Shown here: positions 17,221-27,250 of the stretch, in pieces
How the letters are laid out: every line of letters begins with the position of its first letter
Position numbering within the stretch: the stretch's first letter is position 1
Origin: Plantibacter flavus
Lineage (GTDB): Bacteria > Actinomycetota > Actinomycetes > Actinomycetales > Microbacteriaceae
Direction of reading: 5' to 3'
Assembly: GCF_002024505.1 (NCBI RefSeq)
Contig: NZ_CP019402.1
Location: 1,426,001 to 1,490,000 of the forward strand
DNA length: 64,000 bases
Program-made: the position numbers and the translations under genes
The notes under the pieces: generated by a model
What the model was told of the DNA's origin: nothing
What the model saw: the letters and a program-made list of their open reading frames with translations, nothing else
Databases searched by the model: none

Positions 17221-18015
17221 TCAGGCAGCGACGCCGCGCACGCGGAGCGAGTTCTCGATGATCGTGAGCCCCTCCATGCCGGGGAGCTTCGCGATGTGCC
17301 CGTCGATGCGGCGCACCTCGGCCAGGCCGTCCTCGTCGCCGAAGAGGTGTCCCATGACGTGCGTGACCTCGGAGTCGGGCATGACGCCGGAACCGACGGG
17401 GCCCCACACCTTGCGGAGGAGGAACCGGGTGAGTCGACGGGCGCTCTTCGACGACTCCAGGCGTGCCCTGGCCTGGCTCGCGTAGAACGCCACGTGACGG
17501 GTCTCCTGCTTCGCGATCCGCTTGAGGAGGACCGAGAGCACCGGGTGCCGCTCCAACTGTGCGAGGCGGGTGTACGCGGCGGTCGCTGACCACTCGTTCG
17601 CCGCGCCCCAGCTCATGTGCACCGCGATGAAGTCGGTGCCCACGAGGTTGCCGAGGATCGACTGCTTGATGGGGTCGAGGCGGTCCTTCCAGCCGAGCTT
17701 CAGGCGCGTCGCCTTGAGCTCGTCGAAGTCGACCGTGATGTCGTGGGCGGCTAGGACGGCGGCGAGCGCCTCCCCGTGCCAGAACTCCTCACGGTTCCAC
17801 ATCGTCATGAACGCGCCGACCTCGTCGTCCTCATGGGACGGCGTCATGAGCATGTCGCGCAGGTAGCAGACCGTGTGGTACTCGATGTCGCACATGTAGC
17901 GCAGGCTGCGCAGGGTGGAAGCGGGGAGCGGGTTCGTCTTGAACTCGTCGAAGTCGAGGTCGCTCCAGTTCACCGAGACACTCGTCTCGGTGAACTTGTC
18001 GATGTCAAACGCCAT
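17221..18015 (-). CDS. Ferritin-like diiron protein of the ether-lipid island
   Basis: A 264-aa all-helical protein with a full set of ferritin-type diiron ligands: E45 (DIEYH), E77 and H80 (EEFWH), E141 (ANEW), and E171 with H174 (ETRH). That pattern is used by ribonucleotide reductase R2, fatty-acid desaturases, arylamine oxygenases and aldehyde-deformylating oxygenase, so O2-dependent oxidation of an aliphatic or amine substrate is plausible. There is no transmembrane segment. Its start overlaps the end of the fatty acyl reductase gene by 11 nt, so it is translationally coupled to that enzyme. A degenerate paralogue lies two genes upstream. The substrate is unknown; an alkyl, aldehyde or ether-lipid substrate is inferred from context only. 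Confidence 0.75.
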   Translation of the reverse strand: MAFDIDKFTETSVSVNWSDLDFDEFKTNPLPASTLRSLRYMCDIEYHTVCYLRDMLMTPSHEDDEVGAFMTMWNREEFWHGEALAAVLAAHDITVDFDELKATRLKLGWKDRLDPIKQSILGNLVGTDFIAVHMSWGAANEWSATAAYTRLAQLERHPVLSVLLKRIAKQETRHVAFYASQARARLESSKSARRLTRFLLRKVWGPVGSGVMPDSEVTHVMGHLFGDEDGLAEVRRIDGHIAKLPGMEGLTIIENSLRVRGVAA

Positions 18016-20416
18016 GTGCGGTGGGGCGGTCGGGGATCGTGTCCTCGGCCGTCCGCTCTCCTCTCGGCTGTGCGGGGCGCGGTGCGCGGGTCAGTTCGTC
18101 TTCGGAGCGGACGCCTCCGGTGGTTCGTGCCCATTCTCGCACCGTCCACCGCCCGGCCTGCGCCAGCTTGTACAGGGTGTGGTCGGGGTTGACGGCGACC
18201 GGGTTCCCGACCAGCTGCAGCCAGGCGGCGTCCGCGTGGGAGTCGCCATAGCCGTAGGAGTGCGCGAGGTCCATGCCGTGCTGCTCGGCGTACTGGGTGA
18301 GCCAGGCGCCGCGCGCTTCGTCGACGAGCGGCGGGCTGTCGAGGTAGCCCGTGAGGCGTCCGTTCTCGGCGTGCATCGCCCCGGCCACGACCTCGTCGAA
18401 GAACGGTTCGAGCGGAGCCGTCATGAGGTCGATGGTGCCGGTGACGAGGATCGTCCGGTGACCGGCTGCCCGGTGCGCGGCGATCTGCTCGAGCGCCTGG
18501 GGGAGGAGGCGGGACCGGACGGCCTTGCCGAAGCCGCCCCGGACGATCTTCTCGAGCTGCGCCACGTCGACGCCCTCGTAGCGACGCATGAACGTGCGGA
18601 TGAACTCACCGCGGTCGCGGAGTTCAGCACCGATGTACCCCGGCATGGACGCGCCGAGTGCAGCGATCTCGATGGGCCAGCGCGACCGCGAGGTCGCGGC
18701 GAGCCGCAGCCAGAGGTACTGCTCGATGAGGTTCCAGGCGAGCACCGTGCCCTCGAGGTCGAACACCGCGAGGACGTCGTCGCGCACGGGCAGGATCTTC
18801 TGCTGCTTCGCGGCGCCCGCCTTGCGGTTGGCGAAGGCGCGGGTCAGGGTCGTGACGGCGGGGAAGTGGATGCGCTGGAAGTAGTCGTCCCAGTCGATCG
18901 TCGTGACGTCGAACCCGCGGTCCGCCTGCTGCTCGGGCGTCAACGAGGCGTGCAGGGCACGGGTGCGCTGGTCGTCGAAGACGATCTCGCTCTGCACGTA
19001 GGAGCGGTAGAGCCCGGTGAAGTCGCGGAGCGAGCCGAGGTCGCTCGACGCCTTGCGGATCCGGTCCTGCCACCCGCGGGTGGTCGCGTTCGCCGGCAGG
19101 TGGGAGACGACCCGGCCGGCAGCCGTTGTCGCCTTCTGCCGCCGGTCGATGGAGCGCTCGATCGCGCGCCCGCCGGGGAAGTTCCAGGTCGGCACGCTGA
19201 TGTCGCCGGCGTCCGCCGGGATCGGGTGCTCGGTGAAGTAGCTGTGCACGTTCGCGTACATCTTGTGGAACGGCAGCGGGTTGCTGGCTCCTGAGCTCAC
19301 GTGGAAGTAGCGCGCCGCAGCCGGCTCCGGCGGGGTCTGCGCAGCAGCGAGGATCGCGTTGACGACGAAGTCGACGGGGATGATGTCGAGCACGCTGTCG
19401 GGGAGGCCCGGGAAATCGGGCAGCTGCCCGCGGCCGTAGGCGATGATCAGCGGGTCGGCGACCTTGTAGCCGTCGATCCAGCCGGGGAAGGGGTGCGCGA
19501 GCGCGCTCTCGATGATCGAGGGGCGCACGACGGAGAGTCGGTTGCCCTCGCCGGCCCAGCGCTCTTCGGCGACCCGCTCGGCCATGGCCTTCGTGAAGGT
19601 GTAGACGTCGGTCCAGCCGAGGCTCTCGGCGCGTGCGCGGCCGTGGGCGACGAGTCGGGCGTCGACCCAGGCGATGCGTGCGGCCTCGGCGGCGTTCGAG
19701 ACGGCCTGGGGGCCGGCCTTGCCGTGCTCGCGGCGGGCGGTCTGCATGAGCTTGCGCAGGACCTCCGGACGACGGGACGACTCCTCGGTGCGGACGCGCG
19801 CCGAGCGGGCTGCCTCGGCCTCGACGCGCCAGTCGACGTCGTGTGCGAGGCTGCGTTCCGGCTGGATGCCCTTCCGGGTGCCACCGACGTAGGCGGTGGA
19901 GACGTGGACGACGTGCGGGGTCGCGCCGCTCTTCGCGAGCGCCGCGTACAGCGTGGTCGCTCCGCCGACGTTCGTGGCGAAGGCCTCGTCGATCGGCGGG
20001 TCGAAGGAGACGGTCGACGCGCTGTGGATGACGACGTCGAGGTCGGCCGGCAGTGCCATCTCGTCGAGGCCACCCTCGATCACGCTGACGCGTTCGGCCA
20101 CGATCGCCGCAGCGGCTTCGGCGCCGACGCGTTCGCGCCAGGCCTTGAACACCGGCTTGCGGAGCAGGGTCTGGAGACGGTCGCTTCCGCGCACCGACCC
20201 CTTCTTCCGGATGAGCAGGCTGACACGGGTGGTCGGGTGATCGGCGAGCAGGCGCTCGAGCACCGCCTGACCGAGGAAACCGGTTCCACCGGTGACGAGC
20301 ACGTGCGCGCCGTCGAGGGCGTCCGGGGCGGTGGCGGGCTGCTCAGCGGCCGGCTGCTGAGCCTCGGGCTCCTGCGTGTCGGGCTGCTCGGCGTCTGGCG
20401 TGGGGGTGTCGGTCAT
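18005..20416 (-). CDS. Fatty acyl reductase fused to a HAD-IB phosphatase-like domain
   Basis: An 803-aa two-domain protein. After a 34-residue acidic Pro/Gln/Glu tail comes an extended-SDR domain of the fatty acyl-CoA reductase type: VLVTGGTGFLG (39-49) binds NADPH, HVVHVSTAYVGG marks the active site, Y272-x3-K276 (VYTFTKAMAE) is the catalytic pair, and VVRPSIIESA and DIIPVDFVVNAI follow. It would reduce acyl-CoA to aldehyde or alcohol. The C-terminal domain from about residue 545 is a SerB-like HAD-IB fold with motif I FDLEGT (552-557), a motif II Thr (VTGT) and motif IV YGDSHAD. The second motif-I Asp, normally the general acid/base, is Glu. A GAGGAG site precedes the ATG, which overlaps the upstream stop (ATGA). 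Confidence 0.85.
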   Translation of the reverse strand: MTDTPTPDAEQPDTQEPEAQQPAAEQPATAPDALDGAHVLVTGGTGFLGQAVLERLLADHPTTRVSLLIRKKGSVRGSDRLQTLLRKPVFKAWRERVGAEAAAAIVAERVSVIEGGLDEMALPADLDVVIHSASTVSFDPPIDEAFATNVGGATTLYAALAKSGATPHVVHVSTAYVGGTRKGIQPERSLAHDVDWRVEAEAARSARVRTEESSRRPEVLRKLMQTARREHGKAGPQAVSNAAEAARIAWVDARLVAHGRARAESLGWTDVYTFTKAMAERVAEERWAGEGNRLSVVRPSIIESALAHPFPGWIDGYKVADPLIIAYGRGQLPDFPGLPDSVLDIIPVDFVVNAILAAAQTPPEPAAARYFHVSSGASNPLPFHKMYANVHSYFTEHPIPADAGDISVPTWNFPGGRAIERSIDRRQKATTAAGRVVSHLPANATTRGWQDRIRKASSDLGSLRDFTGLYRSYVQSEIVFDDQRTRALHASLTPEQQADRGFDVTTIDWDDYFQRIHFPAVTTLTRAFANRKAGAAKQQKILPVRDDVLAVFDLEGTVLAWNLIEQYLWLRLAATSRSRWPIEIAALGASMPGYIGAELRDRGEFIRTFMRRYEGVDVAQLEKIVRGGFGKAVRSRLLPQALEQIAAHRAAGHRTILVTGTIDLMTAPLEPFFDEVVAGAMHAENGRLTGYLDSPPLVDEARGAWLTQYAEQHGMDLAHSYGYGDSHADAAWLQLVGNPVAVNPDHTLYKLAQAGRWTVREWARTTGGVRSEDELTRAPRPAQPRGERTAEDTIPDRPTAHGV

Positions 20417-21315
20417 CGGTTCTCCTCGAGGCTGCCGCGGCGTCCGCGGCGGGCGAGTCTTGCGGCGAGATGGAGGCCCGACTGACCGGGCAGCGCGTCG
20501 ATCGACGCGTCGATGCCGAGGACGGCGGGGTCGCTCCAGGTGGCGGTACTGCGGAACACGAGCGCGGCGAACCGTGCCGTCTGTCGGGGGCCGTTCGCAT
20601 CGGAGCCGGTGGGCCACACGGCGTTCCGGATGCGGCGACGGGTGATGCCCTGCGCACGGGGCGACGCGGCGAGGCGGTCGCTCGCTTGTGCGGTGAAGAA
20701 TTCGAGGTGCCTGGCCTTCGTCTCGAGGATCTCGTCGACGAGGCGGTCGAGCACGGGGTGCGGCTCGCGCTCGCGCACCGTGCGGTACGCCGCGTGGGTG
20801 ATGAGGTCGTCGATCGTCCCGATCGTCATGTGCCAGGCGATGATGTCCTCGCCGAGCACGTTCGCGACGAGGGCCTGACCGATGGGCGCGAAGCGGTCGC
20901 GCACGCCGTGGACGGTGCGGCGGAGACCCGTCGAACGCGTCTTGTCGCGAGGGGTCCCGTTCGCCTTGAGCACGGTGTCGAGGGTGTCGGTGATCCAGTA
21001 CTTCTCGTACGCCCAGGTGATGAGGAACGCGGTGACCCTGGCGTCCTTGTGGGTGGGGGTGACGAGCACTCCGCGGAGGTACTGCATGGTCGCGCGCTCG
21101 ATGTCCGACAGGGCCCGGAGGAGCGCGACCGTCTCAGCACTCAGCGGCGTTTCGGCGAACGCCTCGGCGTCGATCTCCTTGCGACGACTGCCGACGGCGG
21201 ACTTCGCGTAGTCGCGGACGCTGAACCCGTGGGCAGGCCGCAGCATGGCGCTCTCCTGCTCCGCGTCCTCGAGGGCTGCGGGTGCTGTTCCGCGCGGCGA
21301 ATCCCGGTTCACCAT
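20413..21315 (-). CDS. Degenerate ferritin-like paralogue (probable non-catalytic partner)
   Basis: A 300-aa protein clearly related to the 264-aa diiron protein two genes downstream: DIERATMQYLRGVLVTPTH aligns with DIEYHTVCYLRDMLMTPSH, and HPVLDRLVDEILETKARHLEFF with HPVLSVLLKRIAKQETRHVAFY. Four of the six metal ligands are changed: the equivalents of E77, H80, E141 and E171 are K105, I108, D170 and K200. E73 and H203 remain. It is therefore unlikely to bind a normal diiron centre and may be a scaffold or regulatory subunit of its paralogue. The ATG was chosen for the GGAG 6 nt upstream; it is the first gene of the leftward operon. Confidence 0.72.
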   Translation of the reverse strand: MVNRDSPRGTAPAALEDAEQESAMLRPAHGFSVRDYAKSAVGSRRKEIDAEAFAETPLSAETVALLRALSDIERATMQYLRGVLVTPTHKDARVTAFLITWAYEKYWITDTLDTVLKANGTPRDKTRSTGLRRTVHGVRDRFAPIGQALVANVLGEDIIAWHMTIGTIDDLITHAAYRTVREREPHPVLDRLVDEILETKARHLEFFTAQASDRLAASPRAQGITRRRIRNAVWPTGSDANGPRQTARFAALVFRSTATWSDPAVLGIDASIDALPGQSGLHLAARLARRGRRGSLEENR

Positions 21316-21348
21316 GGCGTCTCCGTTCCGTGACGATCCGACCTCATC

Positions 21349-21354
21349 ACTGTA
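21349..21354 (-). promoter_or_regulatory. Possible -10 box (TACAGT) of the leftward lipid operon
   Basis: TACAGT on the reverse strand lies about 33 nt before the first ATG of the leftward operon and beside the 20-bp palindrome. No good -35 box is seen. Confidence 0.4.
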
Positions 21355-21364
21355 GCTTGCAACG

Positions 21365-21384
21365 ATACGCAACGCGTAGCGTAT
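21365..21384. promoter_or_regulatory. 20-bp near-perfect palindrome in the divergent lipid promoter region
   Basis: ATACGCAACG joined to CGTAGCGTAT is a palindrome with a single mismatched pair of positions. It overlaps the -10 box of the rightward operon and sits just upstream of the leftward one. Its half-site CGTAGCGTAT resembles CGTAGCGCAAT of the palindrome in front of the tetR gene at 26.3 kb, so the same regulator may bind both, although the half-site spacing differs. Confidence 0.6.
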
Positions 21385-21387
21385 TCT
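21382..21387 (+). promoter_or_regulatory. -10 box (TATTCT) of the rightward lipid operon
   Basis: TATTCT ends 7 nt before the ATG of the SDR gene, which has no ribosome binding site. A repressor bound at the overlapping palindrome would block it. Confidence 0.65.
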
Positions 21388-21394
21388 GATCCCC

Positions 21395-22192
21395 ATGGCT
21401 ACAGCTCTCGTCACCGGTGGGACGTCCGGCATCGGTGCCGCGTTCGCCACGGCGCTCGCCGGACGGGGCTTCGATCTGGTGCTCGTCGCCCGTGACGTCG
21501 AGCGGCTCGAGCGATCGGCCGAGCGACTGCGCGCGACCGGTCGCACCGTCGAGGTGATCAGTGCCGACCTCTCGGACCGCGCCGACGTGGCGAGACTCGC
21601 CGCACGGATCGAGGACCACGCGTCGCCGATCGAGGTCGTCGTGAACAACGCCGGGTTCGGCGTGCACGCCCGCCTCACCGATCCCGACACGAGCGAGCTC
21701 GACAACGCGATCGAGGTCATGTGCCGGAGCGTCACCACCCTCTCGGGCGCCGCGGCCCGCGCCATGCGGGAACGCGGACGCGGCACCATCATCAACGTCT
21801 CGAGCACGGCGGGGTACATCACCACCGGCGGCTACTCCGCGGTGAAGGCGTTCGTCACCACCTACACCGAGGCGCTCGCCGTCGAGCTCGCCGGCTCGGG
21901 TGTCCGCGTGACGGCCCTGTGCCCCGGATGGGTCCGCACCGAGTTCCACGATCGCGCCGGCATCAGCACCCGCTCGATCCCGTCGGGTCTGTGGATCGAT
22001 GTGGACCGGCTCGTCGCCGACGCCCTCCGCGACGCCGGGAGGGGGGTCGTCGTCTCCATCCCGAGCTTCCGCTTCAAAGCCCTCATGGCCCTCGTCAAGT
22101 TCGCGCCCCGTGCGTCCATCCGGTGGATCTCCGGCCGGATGTCCTCGAGCCGTCGAGCCGCCAACGCCGCCCAGTCAGGAGCCCGCCGATGA
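21395..22192 (+). CDS. Short-chain dehydrogenase/reductase of the ether-lipid island
   Basis: Classical SDR (265 aa). TALVTGGTSGIGAAFA is the NADP-binding glycine motif, VVNNAGFG the NNAG motif, IINVSSTAGY supplies the catalytic Ser, and YSAVKAF the Tyr and Lys. A hydrophobic, basic C-terminus (FKALMALVKFAPRASIRW) could attach to membrane. In eukaryotic ether-lipid synthesis an SDR reduces 1-alkyl-DHAP to 1-alkyl-glycerol 3-phosphate; with alkyl-DHAP synthase two genes downstream that role is the most economical guess. Its stop overlaps the PlsC start (ATGA). The leaderless start is supported by the -10 box. Confidence 0.85.
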   Translation: MATALVTGGTSGIGAAFATALAGRGFDLVLVARDVERLERSAERLRATGRTVEVISADLSDRADVARLAARIEDHASPIEVVVNNAGFGVHARLTDPDTSELDNAIEVMCRSVTTLSGAAARAMRERGRGTIINVSSTAGYITTGGYSAVKAFVTTYTEALAVELAGSGVRVTALCPGWVRTEFHDRAGISTRSIPSGLWIDVDRLVADALRDAGRGVVVSIPSFRFKALMALVKFAPRASIRWISGRMSSSRRAANAAQSGARR

Positions 22193-22893
22193 CCGCAGAG
22201 CCGCGGTTCACCTCCTCCCTCCACGCCAACGCGCGCTTCGTCGCCCAGCGTCTGCTGCTGAAGCCCCTCGTGTGGTCGCTGACCCGCGTGACGGTGACGG
22301 GTCGCGAGCGCCTGTCGGGCGTGACCGGGCCGTACATCGTCGTCGCCAACCACCAGTCGCACCTCGACGCACCGCTCGTCGTCGGGGCCATGCCTCGTCG
22401 GCTGTCGCGCTACCTCGCCGCAGGCGTGGCGGCCGACTACTTCTTCGACGTCCCCGCCCGTCGGATCTTCGCCGCGCTCTTCTTCAACGCCTTCCCGGTG
22501 GACCGCTCGGGCGACCGCAAGCGTGCGGGCGTGTCTCGGCAGCTGCTCGAGAGCGGCGTCCCGATCCTGATCTTCCCCGAGGGCGGCCGGTCGCGGACGG
22601 GCGAGCTCGGCCGGTTCAAGCCCGGTGCCGCGGCACTCGCCACACGCCAGGGCATCCCCTGCCTCCCGGTGGCCGTCCTCGGCACCCACTCCGCCATGCC
22701 GAAGGGTCGCAACTGGCCCGTCCCCGGACGACCGCCGGTGCGCGTCGTCTTCGGGCAACCGATCCACCCGCAGCCGAACGAGACGCCCGTCCAGCTCATG
22801 GACCGCGTCGTCGCCGAGATCGTCGCGCTGCGCGCCTCGGTCGAGCCGGGAGCACACGTTTCGATCGACACACCACGAAAGGAAGCCGGATGA
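22189..22893 (+). CDS. PlsC-family 1-acylglycerol-phosphate acyltransferase
   Basis: A 234-aa membrane-associated acyltransferase. Motif I NHQSHLD (HX4D) is the catalytic centre, FPEGGRSRTGELGRFKPGAA is motif III for phosphate binding, and PCLPVAVLGTH is motif IV. It normally transfers an acyl chain to the sn-2 position of lysophosphatidate. In this operon it could acylate 1-alkyl-glycerol 3-phosphate or supply acyl-DHAP as substrate for the next enzyme. It overlaps both neighbours by 4 nt, so SDR, acyltransferase and alkyl synthase are translationally coupled. Confidence 0.88.
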   Translation: MTAEPRFTSSLHANARFVAQRLLLKPLVWSLTRVTVTGRERLSGVTGPYIVVANHQSHLDAPLVVGAMPRRLSRYLAAGVAADYFFDVPARRIFAALFFNAFPVDRSGDRKRAGVSRQLLESGVPILIFPEGGRSRTGELGRFKPGAAALATRQGIPCLPVAVLGTHSAMPKGRNWPVPGRPPVRVVFGQPIHPQPNETPVQLMDRVVAEIVALRASVEPGAHVSIDTPRKEAG

Positions 22894-24554
22894 CGTCTGT
22901 GGAGCACATGAAGTGGTGGGGCTGGGGAGTCGAAGGGGTCGCCTTCGAGCACAGCAACAAGCCGGACTTCGCGCCGTTCGTGAAGCAGGCCGTCGGTCTC
23001 GACCTCCGGAAGCCGGCGCAGTCACACCTCAGCTTCGACGAGCTCACCGTCCCGGCGTCCCGTGCGTCCGAGGAGTTCATCGCCGAGCTCTCGACGCTCG
23101 TCGGCCAGGGTCACGTGACCACGGACGACCAGGAGCGCGTCGTCCACACCTACGGCAAGAGCATCCGCGACCTGCTGCGGATCCGCGCGAACGACCTGCC
23201 CCGCACGCCCGACCTCGTCGTGTACCCGGCTGACGAGGCCGAGGTCGCGTCGGTCGTCGCTGCAGCCGTCGACGCAGACGCCGTGATCATCCCGTTCGGC
23301 GGTGGCACCAACATCGCCGGCTCGCTCGACCCCCAGCCGACGGAGGAGCGGGTCATCATCTCGCTCGACCTCGGTCGGCTCGACCGCGTCCTGTCGATCG
23401 ACGAGGGCTCCGGTCTCGCCACCATCCAGGCCGGTGCGCAGGGGCCCTCGATCGAGGAGCAGCTCGGCGCCAAGGGCTGGACGATGGGCCACTTCCCCGA
23501 CAGCTTCACGCACTCCACGCTCGGCGGATGGGTCGCGACCCGCTCCTCGGGCATGCAGTCCGACAAGTACGGCGACATCGCCGACATCACCAAGGGTCTG
23601 CGGATGGTGCGCCCGAACGGCATCGTGGCGATCCGCCCCGTCCCGAGCGCGTCGACCGGACCGAGCGTCCGCGAGATGATCATCGGCAGCGAGGGTCGAC
23701 TCGGCATCATCACCGAGGTCACCGTGCAGGTCCACCGGACGCCGGCCGTCCGCGAGGTCCTCGGCTACTTCTTCCCCACCTGGGAGGCAGGGCTCGCGGC
23801 GATGCACGAGATCGCGGAGAGCGACGCCAGCCCCTCGGTCACCCGGGTGTCGAACGCCCGGGAGAGCGGCTTCTCGCTCGCGACCCGCAAGGCCAGCACC
23901 GGCGTCTCGGCGCAGGTCACCAAGGGGCTCATGAAGGTGCTCACGGCCAGGGGTTGGGACCTCGAGCAGCTGTGCCTCTCCTTCATCGGCTACGAGGGCA
24001 GCGCGTCGCACGTGCGATACGAGAAGGGCCTCGTCGGCTCGATCGTCCGGAAGCACGGCGGCATCGGCGTCGGCAAGGGCCCCGGCGCCCTCTACGACCA
24101 GAAGAAGTTCGACACCCCGTACCTGCGCGACTTCCTCCTCGACCGCGGAGCCGCGGCGGACGTCTCGGAGACCGCAGCGCCCTGGTCGCGCCTGCAGGAG
24201 GTCTACGACGCCGCGAACGACGCCGCCAACGCCGCGTACGACAAGCTCGGGGTGCATGGATGGATCATGTGCCACCTCTCGCACTCGTACCACTCCGGCG
24301 CGTGCCTGTACTTCACGTTCGCGTTCATCACCGGCGACGACCCGATCGGCGAGTACGAGCAGGTCAAGTCGGCGATCCAGCAGTCCTTCGTCGACCACGG
24401 TGGCACCCTCTCGCACCACCACGCGGTCGGCGTCGAGCACTCGCCGTGGATGGAGCAGGACATCTCGACCGAGGGCGTCGCGATCATGCGCGGCCTCTTC
24501 GACAGCGCGGACCCCGGCTCGAACTTCAACCCCGGCAAGATCCTCGCGGACTGA
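22890..24554 (+). CDS. Alkylglycerone-phosphate (alkyl-DHAP) synthase homologue
   Basis: A 554-aa FAD enzyme that exchanges the acyl chain of acyl-DHAP for a fatty alcohol, forming the ether bond. It carries the whole AGPS pattern rather than that of lactate or glycolate oxidases: KWWGWG (8-13), PRTPDLVVYP, the FAD loop PFGGGTNIAG (135-144), GHFPDSFTHSTLGGWVATR, STGPSVREMIIGSEGRLGII, ETAAPW (427-432), SHSYHSGACLYFTFAF with the catalytic-type Tyr 467, and SHHH (508-511), the active-site histidine triad. AAAGGAAG precedes the ATG. The neighbouring acyl reductase would supply the alcohol. The family call is strong; activity in this organism is inferred. Confidence 0.85.
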   Translation: MTSVEHMKWWGWGVEGVAFEHSNKPDFAPFVKQAVGLDLRKPAQSHLSFDELTVPASRASEEFIAELSTLVGQGHVTTDDQERVVHTYGKSIRDLLRIRANDLPRTPDLVVYPADEAEVASVVAAAVDADAVIIPFGGGTNIAGSLDPQPTEERVIISLDLGRLDRVLSIDEGSGLATIQAGAQGPSIEEQLGAKGWTMGHFPDSFTHSTLGGWVATRSSGMQSDKYGDIADITKGLRMVRPNGIVAIRPVPSASTGPSVREMIIGSEGRLGIITEVTVQVHRTPAVREVLGYFFPTWEAGLAAMHEIAESDASPSVTRVSNARESGFSLATRKASTGVSAQVTKGLMKVLTARGWDLEQLCLSFIGYEGSASHVRYEKGLVGSIVRKHGGIGVGKGPGALYDQKKFDTPYLRDFLLDRGAAADVSETAAPWSRLQEVYDAANDAANAAYDKLGVHGWIMCHLSHSYHSGACLYFTFAFITGDDPIGEYEQVKSAIQQSFVDHGGTLSHHHAVGVEHSPWMEQDISTEGVAIMRGLFDSADPGSNFNPGKILAD

Positions 24555-24641
24555 GCCCGGTCGCTGAGTGGTCCTCCGGTCCTGAGTGATTCCTCCGGTT
24601 TCTGAGTCGCTCCTCCGGTCCCTGAGCCGTTTCTCCGGGCC
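24551..24641. repeat. Imperfect tandem repeat, units of about 20 bp beginning CTGAG
   Basis: After the stop region of the alkyl synthase gene, units of the form CTGAGTNNNTCCTCCGGTC recur at 24564, 24582, 24602 and 24622. They lead into the CTGAGCCTGTCGAAG palindrome at 24642. The alkyl synthase stop codon is itself part of a CTGAGCC copy. No coding potential or spacers are seen. Confidence 0.75.
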
Positions 24642-24670
24642 CTGAGCCTGTCGAAGGGCGGGCTCAGGGC
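24639..24670. terminator. Repeat-derived bidirectional hairpin
   Basis: GCCCTGAGCC and GGCTCAGGGC form a perfect 10-bp stem around a 12-nt loop that contains TGTCGAAGGGC. It lies between convergent genes and includes the stop codon of the lipid kinase, so the dispersed repeat seems to serve as terminator for both. Confidence 0.7.
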
Positions 24671-25695
24671 CGGAGCCGTCCCGATCGCACCGCAGTCGCC
24701 GGCAGCCGGACGATGAGTGCACCAGGGTCGACGGTCAGCCGGGCCGCAGAGACCAGGCCGATCCCGTCGCCGTCCGCCTGGAACTCGGCGGGCGGTGAGA
24801 CCGTCACGTCGATACGGCGCACCCGCAGGTAGCGGAGCGCACCTCCGGCGGAACCGGCCGTCTCGACGGCACTCGGCTGCACGCGGCGGCCCCGCGTCCG
24901 TCTGCCCTTGGAGAACCGGGCGACGGGATTGTTCGCGCGGTGCAGCCAGCGCGTGACGCGGACCCCGTCCCACCCTTCGAGGGAGCGCACCATGAGGACG
25001 TCGAGCACACCGTCGTCCAGGAGTGCGTCGGGCAGGACGTCGAGGCCCGCTGAGACGGTGCCGCAGTTCCCGACGAACATCGTGTGCGTCCGTCCGCTCC
25101 GGATCGGTCCGCCGTCCTCCTTCCAGGAGACGCGGGGCCGATCGCGCCGGAAGAGTCCGCGGATGATCGGGACGACGTAGGCGATCCAGCCGAAGCGGCG
25201 CTTGAGCACCGGGTCGGCGTGGGCCACCATGTCCGCGTCGACACCGAAGCCCGACATGACGAGGAACGGGGTGCTGCGCCGGACGCCCTCGGGGTTCCGG
25301 TACTCGATCAGGCCGACGTCGACGCTGCGGTCCTCGCCGATGAACGCGGCCCGCACCGCGGCGACCGTGTCGATCGGGATCCCGGCGTTCCGCGCGAAGA
25401 GGTTCGCGGTACCGACGGGGACGACGGCGAACGGCGTCCGGGTGTGACGCATCGCCCCGGCCACCTCGCGGACCGTCCCGTCACCGCCGGCGGCGATCAC
25501 GAGCGCCGCACCGCCCCCGAGCGCCTCCGCGACCTGGTCGACCGCGGTCGACCGCTCGCGGGTCGGGATCCAGCTGGTCGGGCCCCAGCCGGCCTCGGCG
25601 GCTGCGGCGTCGACGAGCCTCGTCACGCGCTCGAGCTGGATGCGCGTCGGGTTGTAGATCACCGCAGCGTGCGGCGGGGTGCTGCCTCGCGTCAT
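24664..25695 (-). CDS. Diacylglycerol kinase-family lipid kinase (YegS/DagK fold)
   Basis: A 343-aa lipid kinase. VIYNPTRIQLERV opens the catalytic domain, VIAAGGDGTVREVAGAM is the nucleotide-binding GGDGT motif, and VVPVGTANLFARNAGIP is the conserved second motif. FVGNCGTVSAGLDVLPDALLDDGVLDV and the C-terminal FQADGDGI complete the family pattern. It phosphorylates diacylglycerol or a related lipid to the phosphatidate level, and an alkyl-acyl-glycerol would be a fitting substrate next to the ether-lipid genes. The start overlaps the tetR stop by 4 nt, so expression is tied to that regulator. Confidence 0.86.
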   Translation of the reverse strand: MTRGSTPPHAAVIYNPTRIQLERVTRLVDAAAAEAGWGPTSWIPTRERSTAVDQVAEALGGGAALVIAAGGDGTVREVAGAMRHTRTPFAVVPVGTANLFARNAGIPIDTVAAVRAAFIGEDRSVDVGLIEYRNPEGVRRSTPFLVMSGFGVDADMVAHADPVLKRRFGWIAYVVPIIRGLFRRDRPRVSWKEDGGPIRSGRTHTMFVGNCGTVSAGLDVLPDALLDDGVLDVLMVRSLEGWDGVRVTRWLHRANNPVARFSKGRRTRGRRVQPSAVETAGSAGGALRYLRVRRIDVTVSPPAEFQADGDGIGLVSAARLTVDPGALIVRLPATAVRSGRLRP

Positions 25696-26258
25696 GCGGC
25701 CAGTGCCGGCCAGAGGACGGACAGGACCTGTTCCGCCCAGTCGTCGTCCATGTCGGCGCCGCGGACGAGCTGTCCGAGGACCGCGCCGAGGAGCAGGGTC
25801 GCGACGAGCCGGCCGTCGAGTCCGGGCTTCAGATCGCCGGTGGAGATCCGTTCGTCGACCAGGTTGGACAGCGCGCGCGCCCGGTTCCTCGTGAGGTCGC
25901 GGAGCAGCGTCGAGAACTCGGGGTCGTCCTGGAGCAGGATCGACGCGATCGTGCCCCGGCCCACCACGTCCTCGATCATCGCCCGGGCTTCGTGGAGCAG
26001 CCAGGTGAAGGTGTCGTAGGTCGAGAGGTTCTCGGGGATCTCGACCGGAGTCTCCATGGCGCGGGCGACGGCCGCCGTGAGCAGCTCCGAGCGGTTGCGG
26101 TACCGCCGATAGATCGTCGTCTTCGCCACGCCGGTGGTCTCCGCGACCGCCTCGATGTTGACGGCGACCGAGCCGCGCGAGCGCATGAGGTCGAGGGCTG
26201 CGTCGAGGATGCGGTCGCTCATCTGCTGAGCGCGGGAGACGCGTCGGGAGACGGGCAC
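25692..26258 (-). CDS. TetR-family regulator of the lipid island
   Basis: A 188-aa repressor. The N-terminal helix-turn-helix is SDRILDAALDLMRSRGSVAV through TTGVAKTTIYRRYRNRSELL; the remainder is a helical ligand/dimer domain. The GTG start is chosen because GGAGGAGG lies 7 nt upstream; earlier in-frame starts would run into the palindromic operator. It is co-translated with the lipid kinase. Regulation of its own promoter is likely because a 29-bp inverted repeat lies 46 bp upstream. A similar half-site at 21.37 kb suggests it also controls the divergent ether-lipid operons. A lipid or acyl-CoA inducer is a guess. Confidence 0.82.
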   Translation of the reverse strand: MPVSRRVSRAQQMSDRILDAALDLMRSRGSVAVNIEAVAETTGVAKTTIYRRYRNRSELLTAAVARAMETPVEIPENLSTYDTFTWLLHEARAMIEDVVGRGTIASILLQDDPEFSTLLRDLTRNRARALSNLVDERISTGDLKPGLDGRLVATLLLGAVLGQLVRGADMDDDWAEQVLSVLWPALAA

Positions 26259-26303
26259 CGACCAACCTCCTCCGCGCGACGCCGGAGTCCGGTCGGATCG
26301 GTC

Positions 26304-26332
26304 CATTGCGCTACGCCCACCGTAGCGCAATG
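26304..26332. promoter_or_regulatory. Perfect inverted repeat, probable TetR operator
   Basis: CATTGCGCTACG and CGTAGCGCAATG are perfect 12-bp inverted arms separated by CCCAC. The site lies 46 bp before the tetR start and contains a TACGGT sequence on the reverse strand that could be the -10 box, so repressor binding would block tetR and lipid kinase expression. Confidence 0.8.
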
Positions 26333-26374: not shown

Positions 26375-27250
26375 TCAGTCCCAGCGAGGGTCGTCCGGGT
26401 CGGGGGAGTCCTCGCCGTCGGCGTCGGTCATGATCGTCGCGCCGTCGATCCAGGCCGTCAGGGCGTCACCGTGTAGCTGCTCGGGGGCGGGAGCGCCGAA
26501 GAGCTGCGGGTGCGTCACGGCCGCGAGCGGTGCGTCGCTCGCGAAGACGACGACGTTGCCGAGCGGCCCCTCGTCGTCGACCGGATCGAAGTCGAGGACG
26601 ACGGCGACGTGGGCGAACACGGCTCGCAGCGTCGCCGCCTGGCGTCGCGAGTAGTCGAACGGGCTGCCGTCGAGCAGGTTCACCGCGATCACGCCGTCGT
26701 CCGCCGAGCGCGCCGCCACGCGGCGGTAGAACTCGAGGCTCGCGACCCGACGGTGGATCACCGCCGCATCCCAGAGGTCGACGACGGTCACCTTCGCGTC
26801 CCGCCACGCTGTGACGTCCGCGCCGGTGGTGGCGGCTTCGTCGATCAGCTCGTCCGCGACGGCCCTGGCGTCACCGAAGCGGACCTCGACCCGATGACCG
26901 TCCGGGAGCGGCAGCGCCTCCAGCATCCCGGTGAACAGCTCCGGTTCAAACTCGACGACGAGCTGCGGCGATCCCGGACGCGTCGCCTGGACGTAGCGGG
27001 GGAGCGTCAGCGCTCCGGCTCCGAGGTGGACGACGAAGAGCTCCTCGCCCGCCGGGGCCTCGGCGTCGATCACTCGTGCGATGTGCCGGATGTACGGGTA
27101 CTCGAGCGAGCGGGGATCCACGAGGGAGACCACCGACTGCGGGATGTCGTCGACGCTGAGTTCGTAGCGCAGTGTCCGCTTGTCGAGGAGGGTGATCCGG
27201 GCGTCGCGGCCGCCGAACGGCAGTCGGCGGGAACGGGAGAACAGAGGCAC
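26375..27250 (-). CDS. Spermidine synthase-like methyltransferase-fold protein
   Basis: A 291-aa protein of the spermidine-synthase-like group. FVVHLGAGALTLPRYV resembles the nucleotide-binding loop, LVVEFEPEL the acidic residue after strand 2, and VRFGDARAVADEL and DAKVTVVDLWDAA the active-site region with acidic residues. The N-terminal domain (LRYELSVDDIPQSVVSLVDPRSLEYPYIRHIARVI is split by loops) replaces the usual tetramerisation domain. True aminopropyltransferase activity is doubtful because no polyamine genes are nearby. The GTG start has no ribosome binding site but a TAGGCT box 6 nt upstream. The acidic C-terminus (DADGEDSPDPDDP) is unusual. Confidence 0.75.
   Translation of the reverse strand: MPLFSRSRRLPFGGRDARITLLDKRTLRYELSVDDIPQSVVSLVDPRSLEYPYIRHIARVIDAEAPAGEELFVVHLGAGALTLPRYVQATRPGSPQLVVEFEPELFTGMLEALPLPDGHRVEVRFGDARAVADELIDEAATTGADVTAWRDAKVTVVDLWDAAVIHRRVASLEFYRRVAARSADDGVIAVNLLDGSPFDYSRRQAATLRAVFAHVAVVLDFDPVDDEGPLGNVVVFASDAPLAAVTHPQLFGAPAPEQLHGDALTAWIDGATIMTDADGEDSPDPDDPRWD

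Follow-up and report, generated by a model that had tools for sequence, protein, structure and literature searches.

Plasmalogens are best known from animals and anaerobic bacteria, and dimethyl acetals (DMAs) are the marker of these vinyl-ether lipids. Does the aerobic actinobacterium Plantibacter flavus carry the genes for such lipids in a single island? The question is raised by eight neighboring genes in the window analyzed here, the 64,000 nucleotides at positions 1,426,001 to 1,490,000 of contig NZ_CP019402.1. The answer that we favor, with modest confidence, is an aerobic ether-lipid pathway running through DHAP, in which the vinyl ether of a plasmalogen-type product is made by two ferritin-like proteins, Fer1 and Fer2. 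Taken by parts, an ether-lipid pathway via DHAP in aerobic hosts from soil and plants is likely, its products are probably plasmalogens, and the vinyl ether would be made by Fer1/Fer2.

The island consists of a leftward operon, Fer2–FAR-HAD–Fer1, and a rightward operon, SDR–PlsC–AGPS, followed by genes for a lipid kinase and a TetR protein, and all eight genes lie where the original prediction had placed them. The operons had been described as facing each other; they are in fact divergent, back to back around a gap of 79 bp (21316-21394). Their predicted coupling is borne out by overlaps of 4 bp at the coupled junctions and of 11 bp between Fer1 and FAR-HAD. On the reverse strand, Fer2 (20413..21315; alternative start 21246) is a paralog of Fer1 with an incomplete set of metal ligands and a candidate structural or partner subunit, FAR-HAD (18005..20416) is a fatty acyl reductase fused to a HAD-IB domain and the putative source of fatty alcohol, and Fer1 (17221..18015), a possible catalytic subunit for plasmanyl desaturation, is a ferritin-like diiron protein with the predicted fold of soluble acyl-ACP desaturases. 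On the forward strand are SDR (21395..22192), a candidate acyl/alkyl-DHAP reductase, a PlsC-type acyltransferase (22189..22893) with a putative role in DHAP acylation or sn-2 acylation, and AGPS (22890..24554), a homolog of alkyl-dihydroxyacetonephosphate synthase. An accessory DAGK/YegS-type lipid kinase (24664..25695) and a TetR-family regulator (25692..26330; PF00440, E 3.3e-10) are on the reverse strand. For the regulator, ATG 26306 is a more probable start than TTG 26330: a perfect 19-bp palindrome (26309..26327, CGCTACG-n5-CGTAGCG), a candidate operator directly upstream of tetR, immediately precedes that ATG. Another candidate operator, CGATACG-n5-CGTAGCG, with one mismatch to the conserved site, lies in the divergent promoter (21363..21381). 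All 19/19 loci where AGPS has a close relative of TetR nearby contain the palindrome, as does one other locus. This conservation links TetR to the island as its probable regulator, with putative binding at these sites.

By sequence, AGPS is an alkyl-DHAP synthase with putative alkyl-exchange activity. It contains the Pfam domains FAD_binding_4 (PF01565, E 2.3e-32) and FAD-oxidase_C (PF02913, E 1.9e-37), and in phmmer it scores 392 and 299 bits against solved alkyl-DHAP synthases, the best D-lactate dehydrogenase reaching only 82 bits; its matches include 2uuu (E 4.3e-116) and 4bby (E 8.2e-88). A grouping with D-lactate/glycolate oxidases, which the original prediction had named as part of a finding that would overturn it, is not what these scores show, and this identity was rejected. 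The window protein has all four of the motifs claimed for it (KWWGWG, ETAAPW, SHSY, and SHHH). Among aligned AGPS rows, KWWGWG is present in 80/81 and SHHH in 81/81; the latter aligns to solved AGPS, and 4bby carries a KWNGWG stretch. We take the SHHH and KWWGWG-like motifs to have a catalytic role in AGPS.

Motifs are conserved in the partner enzymes too. FAR-HAD matches NAD_binding_4 (PF07993, E 7.6e-49) and PF12710 (E 9.1e-29), and weakly Sterile; YxxxK is present in 70/70 rows, and in 68/70 the HAD motif I has DxE in place of DxD. SDR (PF00106, E 1.2e-45) has YxxxK in 79/79 rows, and its nearest NCBIfam family is mycolate_SDR, at 163 bits far below the cut-off of 380. PlsC (PF01553, E 5.5e-23) has HxxxxD in 80/80 rows. 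Both SDR and PlsC are conserved in the island, and both belong to broad families. The lipid kinase (PF00781, E 1.2e-20) has a relative in just 17 of the 80 named AGPS loci, and was dropped as a core member.

Co-occurrence of the other six genes across genomes, proposed earlier as a check, was searched for, and all six were found together in 64/80 named AGPS loci. Recurring within 7.1-9.9 kb in that many loci, they are associated beyond chance. Along with the AGPS similarity, it strongly supports the interpretation of the island as one of ether-lipid synthesis. Among 199 genomes of the family, Fer1 and AGPS occur together in 53, Fer1 alone in 6, and AGPS alone in 2, and 27/85 genera hold both. 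The complete island is known from Microbacteriaceae, Streptomycetaceae, and a Phytoactinopolyspora, and in another family it stands in a single orientation behind a TetR gene (loci L068, L069, L079, and L080). For example, AGPS is present in 12/12 Subtercola genomes, with the full island in 8/8 named loci of this genus, and Agreia and Frigoribacterium faeni are also island-bearing. The idea that the island is a peculiarity of Plantibacter was thus rejected.

There are exceptions to this co-inheritance. Of the six Fer1-positive family genomes without AGPS, one (G107) is a contig-edge case; the remaining five, together with G429, have lone Fer2-Fer1 pairs, and none of these six lone-pair genomes has FAR-HAD at E 1e-20. 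One lone pair is in a probable Agromyces. Hence, the pair can exist apart from the ether-lipid pathway. In a quick Fer1 tree, many of whose branches are weakly supported, four lone-pair rows fall within a 15-row clade that holds 11 island rows (SH-aLRT 99). Because they are nested inside the island clade, the lone pairs look secondary rather than a remnant of an ancestral, ether-independent form. In two genomes (G202 and G236, f5), Fer1 (55-57%) occurs with a FAR-HAD relative and no AGPS match. Kineococcus combines AGPS with a FAR-HAD relative and lacks Fer1, and 9 of its 11 AGPS-positive genomes have Fer3, a distant diiron paralog; in a post hoc reading, Fer3 may stand in for Fer1 there. Seven f12 genomes (G226, G257, G325, G366, G391, G403, and G424) carry AGPS and have neither of the two diiron proteins, Fer1 or Fer3.

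The original prediction spoke of diiron proteins in the plural, and this is right for one of them. Fer1 has all six diiron ligands intact, with ExxH motifs in a predicted acyl-ACP desaturase fold. Fer2 is clearly homologous (E 1.4e-37; hhalign 100%) and lacks a minimum of two ligands, in most copies three: none of 37 aligned rows retains H80 or E171, and 35 of them are also without E77. Fer2 was therefore discarded as a second diiron enzyme and, judged by the ligands, only Fer1 can be one. In Foldseek, the closest matches of the predicted Fer1 fold are soluble acyl-ACP desaturases, and 6d9f, a structure with aldehyde-deformylating activity, comes at rank 48, in lists from which a missing fold is not thereby excluded. 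The window protein scores 17.8 bits against PF03405, below the curated cut-off of 22.7; some relatives carry a precomputed PF03405 label. From the soluble acyl-ACP desaturases, such as the plant enzymes and mycobacterial DesA2, Fer1 further differs by its low identity (just 12-17% in alignments), its pairing with a metal-less paralog, and its genomic tie to AGPS. The bacterial multicomponent monooxygenases (phenol hydroxylase, sMMO) have larger chains than the Fer proteins and bring a reductase, a ferredoxin, and a regulatory protein, no domain of which was found by Pfam among the island proteins of the window; nor does the island contain a gene for an electron donor. The broad claim that a diiron protein modifies the chain can thus be narrowed to a desaturase-like Fer1 with a metal-less partner, vinyl-ether formation being the most likely reaction, and hydroxylation and deformylation possible alternatives.

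Published fatty-acid profiles, a link that the original prediction did not draw, provide chemical data on island-bearing taxa. In the parts of PMC5945732 available, four Subtercola species contain DMAs (i-16:0 at 6.9-17% and a-15:0 at 3.2-11%) and Agreia low amounts of them. The chains in the Subtercola table are saturated except for trace a-15:1, so that the vinyl ether would be the sole desaturation in that table. The reported polar lipids of Subtercola include phosphatidylglycerol (PG), cardiolipin, and glycolipids, as far as the source text extends. An excerpt of PMC12823222 gives a-15:0 aldehyde/DMA for the type strain of Frigoribacterium faeni and for F. adelgis. Outside these genera, Kineococcus rubinsiae is given 2.9% a-15:0 DMA in the available portion of a Kineococcus paper, which identifies the MIDI "C14:0 2OH" peak as really a-15:0 DMA and calls DMAs, hence probable plasmalogens, surprising in an aerobic bacterium. 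According to the section available of PMC7472656, the usual MIDI library is unable to name acetals. A MIDI profile of Subtercola strains lists 2-OH C14:0 along with abundant C18:1/C16:1 (PMC9287328, in part), so that in the texts available the same Subtercola species have DMAs by one method and "2-OH C14:0" by another. That much C18:1/C16:1 counts against the argument that there is no other desaturation. The correspondence is also incomplete: Subtercola endophyticus has the island, yet its MIDI profile, as excerpted, lacks 2-OH C14:0, and for the species of the island-bearing Frigoribacterium endophyticum AS3.20 the available text reports neither C14:0 2OH nor an acetal. Herbiconiux gentiana, H. 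oxytropis, Salinibacterium metalliresistens, and a Lacisediminihabitans MAG are island-bearing too; the available texts on these three species and on L. profunda, which give major acids only, mention neither acetals nor 2-OH acids. In the portions of published texts covered by a limited literature search, no genes were named for the DMAs of Microbacteriaceae.

Domains of the known vinyl-ether systems were searched for as well. PF10520 (the TMEM189/CarF type) was found in 0/199 and 0/25 genomes, with no control genome above the cut-off. PF09989, which we take to be the DUF2229 component of the PlsA/PlsR system, was found in 0/10 genomes and in 4/14 control genomes. Relatives of either system thus went undetected in the genomes of DMA-positive species, the PF10520 search lacking a working positive control. 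One close parallel is the eukaryotic pathway of the peroxisome and ER, composed of FAR1, GNPAT, AGPS, acyl/alkyl-DHAP reductase, and TMEM189/PEDS1. The island would follow a like chemical logic and has apparent counterparts of its fatty acyl reductase, acyltransferase, SDR ketone reductase, and O2-dependent desaturase, and the two AGPS are homologous; the island differs in being clustered, regulated, and bacterial, with branched chains and with PG, cardiolipin, and glycolipids as the polar lipids described for Subtercola, and in its candidate desaturase, a soluble ferritin-like diiron pair where TMEM189 is a membrane protein. Myxococcus xanthus is an aerobe with an AGPS homolog and O2-dependent vinyl-ether formation, as would be the island hosts; it uses CarF, a TMEM189 homolog, whereas no PF10520 was detected in island genomes in that search without a positive control. 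As outlined in the available part of PMC9702350, which also covers the eukaryotic pathway, the anaerobic PlsA/PlsR system reduces diacyl lipids directly, bypassing DHAP, and in facultative anaerobes its genes lie beside a TetR-type regulator. The island would share with it bacterial vinyl-ether lipids and the adjoining TetR-type gene, and would differ by its DHAP route and by the lack of PF09989 in the 10/10 genomes tested.

The computed results comprise which genes are present and inherited together, their intact motifs, the palindrome and its conservation, and the ligands and predicted fold of Fer1. What we infer is the pathway itself: the catalysis assigned to each enzyme, the sequence of the steps, the repression, and, most of all, formation of the vinyl ether. 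FAR-HAD would convert branched fatty acyl thioesters into alcohols, the PlsC-type enzyme would act on DHAP and/or at the sn-2 position, and AGPS would exchange the acyl chain for the alcohol, giving alkyl-DHAP. SDR would then reduce the ketone, leading into normal phospholipid/glycolipid synthesis, and Fer1, with its diiron site, and metal-less Fer2 would carry out an O2-dependent C1'-C2' desaturation of the alkyl chain. TetR would repress both divergent operons and its own gene via the CGCTACGn5CGTAGCG sites.

The pathway could also stop at saturated alkyl (plasmanyl) lipids, Fer1/Fer2 desaturating or hydroxylating an acyl chain, the alcohol, or a headgroup, and the acetals coming from another route. 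The lone Fer pairs without AGPS suggest a substrate beyond the ether pathway, the Fer1 fold is closest to enzymes working on acyl chains, and the partial sources list 2-OH C14:0 and C18:1 in Subtercola (PMC9287328) and leave acetals unmentioned for several island-bearing species. Such a system is nevertheless rather unlikely, as known vinyl-ether systems went undetected in DMA-positive species and the available texts assign the Kineococcus peak to a-15:0 DMA and give Subtercola species both DMAs and "2-OH C14:0", depending on the method.

FAR enzymes also supply wax esters, and this and the adjoining lipid kinase would fit a neutral or storage ether lipid or wax outside the membrane, with HAD and kinase balancing phosphorylation. 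This is improbable: Pfam finds no wax-ester synthase domain in the island proteins, the kinase does not belong to the conserved island, and DMAs, at as much as 17% of all chains in the Subtercola data available, reach a membrane-scale amount. Least probable by far is a glycolate/D-lactate-type dehydrogenase amid unrelated lipid metabolism. The best NCBIfam match of AGPS is indeed glcD, at 126 bits against a cut-off of 568, in a library possibly without an AGPS model; the 299-392 bits to AGPS structures against 82, SHHH in every row, and the usual partnership with FAR, SDR, and PlsC all argue otherwise.

Returning to the vinyl-ether pathway, a wider version of it can be proposed tentatively: Fer1/Fer2 would be a separately evolved, soluble, O2-dependent, heteromeric diiron delta-1' desaturase of ferritin fold, unrelated to TMEM189/CarF, which with AGPS and FAR-HAD completes an aerobic plasmalogen pathway of Actinomycetota, the source of the DMAs of aerobes and of many "C14:0 2-OH" peaks, with Fer3 as its equivalent in Kineococcus. 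This may be a desaturase type not known from animals or anaerobic bacteria and, provisionally, given a weak literature search, no actinobacterial system with the same gene set has been described. If true, it would add an enzyme class for vinyl-ether chemistry to TMEM189/CarF and PlsA/PlsR, and would offer, with its genes, regulator, and operator, a genetically simple system for asking why aerobes should make lipids so prone to oxidation. It would also allow genomic prediction of which actinobacteria contain ether lipids, and suggest that many chemotaxonomic entries of 2-hydroxy-14:0 are misread anteiso-15:0 dimethyl acetals. Among Propionibacteriaceae, a membrane FA_desaturase, a possible replacement for Fer, lies near the cluster in one case (L125).

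The island is real and conserved, and its predicted product is very probably O-alkyl glycerolipids. All eight genes named in the original prediction are present at the coordinates assigned to them, on a contig that is a single one of 4.21 Mb. Fer1 (a ferritin-like protein with a full diiron ligand set), FAR-HAD (a fatty acyl reductase fused to a HAD domain), and Fer2 (a paralogue of Fer1 without full metal ligands) are encoded leftward; SDR, PlsC, and AGPS (an alkyl-DHAP synthase homologue) rightward; and the last two genes, for a lipid kinase and a TetR regulator, leftward again. Inside each operon, adjoining genes share 4–11 bp. The two operons had been described as facing each other; they are divergent, and 79 bp separate Fer2 and SDR (measured from the longest likely Fer2 frame, ATG 21315). 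Four named Plantibacter loci have a Fer1 that is 100% identical to the one in the window, and another locus has one that is 84% identical. A spermidine-synthase-like gene lies directly past the TetR gene, at 26375–27250 (NF037959, 47 bits).

AGPS contains two FAD-oxidase domains (Pfam), and its assignment to the alkyl-DHAP synthase type is borne out by phmmer scores against solved structures: 392 bits for 2uuu, which we take to be the Dictyostelium AGPS, and 299 bits for 4bby, the peroxisomal AGPS, versus 82 bits for the top D-lactate dehydrogenase match. The SHHH motif is found in 81/81 AGPS rows and KWWGWG in 80/81. Two further FAD-oxidase proteins of the genome have weak similarity to AGPS (29–34% over a part). 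At L047:3546–5200, the island's AGPS is in two overlapping pieces, implying a broken gene or a sequencing error. Among the partner enzymes, YxxxK is intact in FAR-HAD (70/70 rows) and SDR (79/79), as is HxxxxD in PlsC (80/80). A conserved oddity is HAD motif I (residues 552–557 of FAR-HAD, window 18005–20416), which reads DxE instead of the canonical DxD in 68/70 rows, making the phosphatase activity of this domain uncertain. Since the island has one PlsC, acylation of DHAP or of the sn-2 position falls to PlsC or to other enzymes encoded in the genome. An extra PlsC-like stretch occurs between Fer1 and FAR-HAD in islands of Subtercola and Labedella (L135:3504–5201, L136, L138, L140, L144, L146, L147, L150, and L155); the island of L135 also encodes a protein with the Lar_N (lactate-racemase N-terminal) domain.

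Fer1 and AGPS closely co-occur. Among 199 genomes of Microbacteriaceae, Fer1 (≥61% identity) is present in 59 and AGPS (≥63%) in 55, with both in 53, Fer1 alone in 6, and AGPS alone in 2 (Fisher p = 8e-39, a value that ignores relatedness). These counts leave out weak Fer1 matches (G045, G099, G116, and G171), a match to Fer2 only (G113), and a 37% AGPS match (G017). By genus, 27/85 have a genome holding both genes, two have only Fer1, and one only AGPS. A set of 248 genomes of the order has 35 with Fer1 (≥55%), 53 with AGPS (≥51%), and 30 with both, leaving out four genomes with weak Fer1 matches and ten with AGPS matches at 36–39%. Co-occurrence of the six genes across genomes, proposed earlier as a check, was found: among the best 80 of at least 485 confirmed named AGPS loci, 64 have the complete set within 7.1–9.9 kb. 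Within the 16 incomplete loci of these best 80, nine have only SDR, PlsC, and AGPS, and four have FAR-HAD as well; L161 is counted here because its Fer2 scored below the cut-off, and L173 and L178 because AGPS is at the end of the sequence stretch. Fer1 is elsewhere in the genome in 4 of 13 genomes whose AGPS locus lacks it. Loci of Propionibacteriaceae or their kin (L125, L137, L142, L149, L151, L154, L177, and L181) have SDR-PlsC-AGPS with no FAR-HAD or Fer gene nearby, and in L125 a membrane fatty acid desaturase (PF00487) is encoded a short distance away.

Six genomes, from two genera and a third that is probably Agromyces, have a lone Fer2-Fer1 pair, AGPS and FAR-HAD being absent from the genome (for example, L061, L062, L063, and L082, two of them in the probable Agromyces). 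Because these pairs nest inside the island clade in the Fer1 tree, loss of the remaining genes is the simpler reading, and the pair must then serve some use without this AGPS. Two genomes of another family (f5) have Fer1 and a FAR-HAD relative with no AGPS match. The probable Kineococcus has AGPS and lacks Fer1, with FAR-HAD relatives in the four genomes tested. A distant paralogue of Fer1 with an identical ligand pattern, Fer3 (hhalign 96.5%; for example, L102:8466–9350 in the probable Kineococcus), is present in 13/23 genomes of the order with AGPS but without Fer1, in 0/30 with both, and in 9/195 without AGPS. It is found in 9/11 AGPS-positive genomes of the probable Kineococcus and 4/4 of a second genus (f8 g107), both without Fer1. 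This link is only a lead, since Fer3 is not adjacent to AGPS and the 13 genomes all belong to just two genera; both Fer1 and Fer3 are missing from ten AGPS-bearing genomes of the order.

Dimethyl acetals (DMAs) are on record for several of these genera. The accessible text of the S. vilae paper gives 6.9–17% i-16:0 DMA and 3.2–11% a-15:0 DMA for four Subtercola species, low amounts of DMAs for Agreia, and none for Frondihabitans (PMC5945732). In Kineococcus rubinsiae, according to the part available, the MIDI peak "C14:0 2OH" was a-15:0 DMA by GC-MS, which was called surprising at first sight, and plasmalogens were suggested (PMC7472656). Excerpts on Frigoribacterium adelgis and the F. faeni type strain report a-15:0 aldehyde/DMA together with C14:0 2OH (PMC12823222). 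In the portion available of the S. endophyticus paper, MIDI profiles list "2-OH C14:0" at 3.9–15.6% for four other Subtercola type strains and none for S. endophyticus, with large C18:1 values (PMC9287328). From these partial sources, MIDI "C14:0 2-OH" in Microbacteriaceae may be a misread anteiso-15:0 dimethyl acetal. Among the best 80 of at least 485 named AGPS loci, the island is present in 8/8 of Subtercola (S. vilae DB165 and S. lobariae among them), 4/4 of Agreia, and 13/13 of Frigoribacterium (two from metagenome-assembled genomes, and one the type-strain record F. faeni NBRC 103066). AGPS is in 12/12 Subtercola genomes, and S. endophyticus has a complete island. Five genomes (S. vilae, S. 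boreus, S. lobariae, Agreia pratensis, F. faeni) gave no match to PF09989, presumably a domain of the anaerobic PlsA/PlsR plasmalogen system (controls positive). PF10520, the TMEM189/CarF-type domain, was likewise not found in these five, nor in any of 199 Microbacteriaceae genomes, both PF10520 scans having no good positive control.

Vinyl-ether formation by Fer1/Fer2 is, we propose, the one reading that best explains the acetals on record. The island as a whole would then be an aerobic DHAP-route ether-lipid pathway with the vinyl ether made by Fer1/Fer2, a reading we hold at somewhat better than even odds. A little short of an even chance is that Fer1/Fer2 form a separately evolved class of vinyl-ether-forming enzymes, giving with AGPS and FAR-HAD a complete aerobic plasmalogen pathway, with Fer3 as the equivalent in Kineococcus. 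From a limited literature search, we know of no such actinobacterial system in print. The genomes of Herbiconiux gentiana, H. oxytropis, and Salinibacterium metalliresistens have the island, and the accessible parts of their descriptions, which give major acids only, name neither acetals nor 2-hydroxy acids; the description of Lacisediminihabitans profunda is equally silent on both. Because only major acids are given and, according to the Kineococcus paper (PMC7472656), MIDI can name acetals only when its anaerobe library is used, this silence is weak evidence against and no support, and it slightly lowers the odds of both readings.

A palindrome, CGCTACGn5CGTAGCG, is a candidate TetR operator. 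Among the best 80 of at least 485 named loci it occurs in 20, including 19/19 in which AGPS has a TetR relative (≥45% identity) nearby; the twentieth is L139, whose contig stops shortly beyond AGPS. It is absent from L135, L147, and L153, three loci with weaker TetR matches, and appeared 0 times in twenty letter shuffles of each locus. The window alone has two sites with ≤2 mismatches, which is not significant (0.78 expected; ≥2 in 17/100 shuffles), and the weight of the palindrome therefore comes from the comparison across loci. The divergent promoter holds it in 16/20 loci, and a copy with one mismatch is in that of the window; an exact copy precedes tetR in four Plantibacter loci and in the window.
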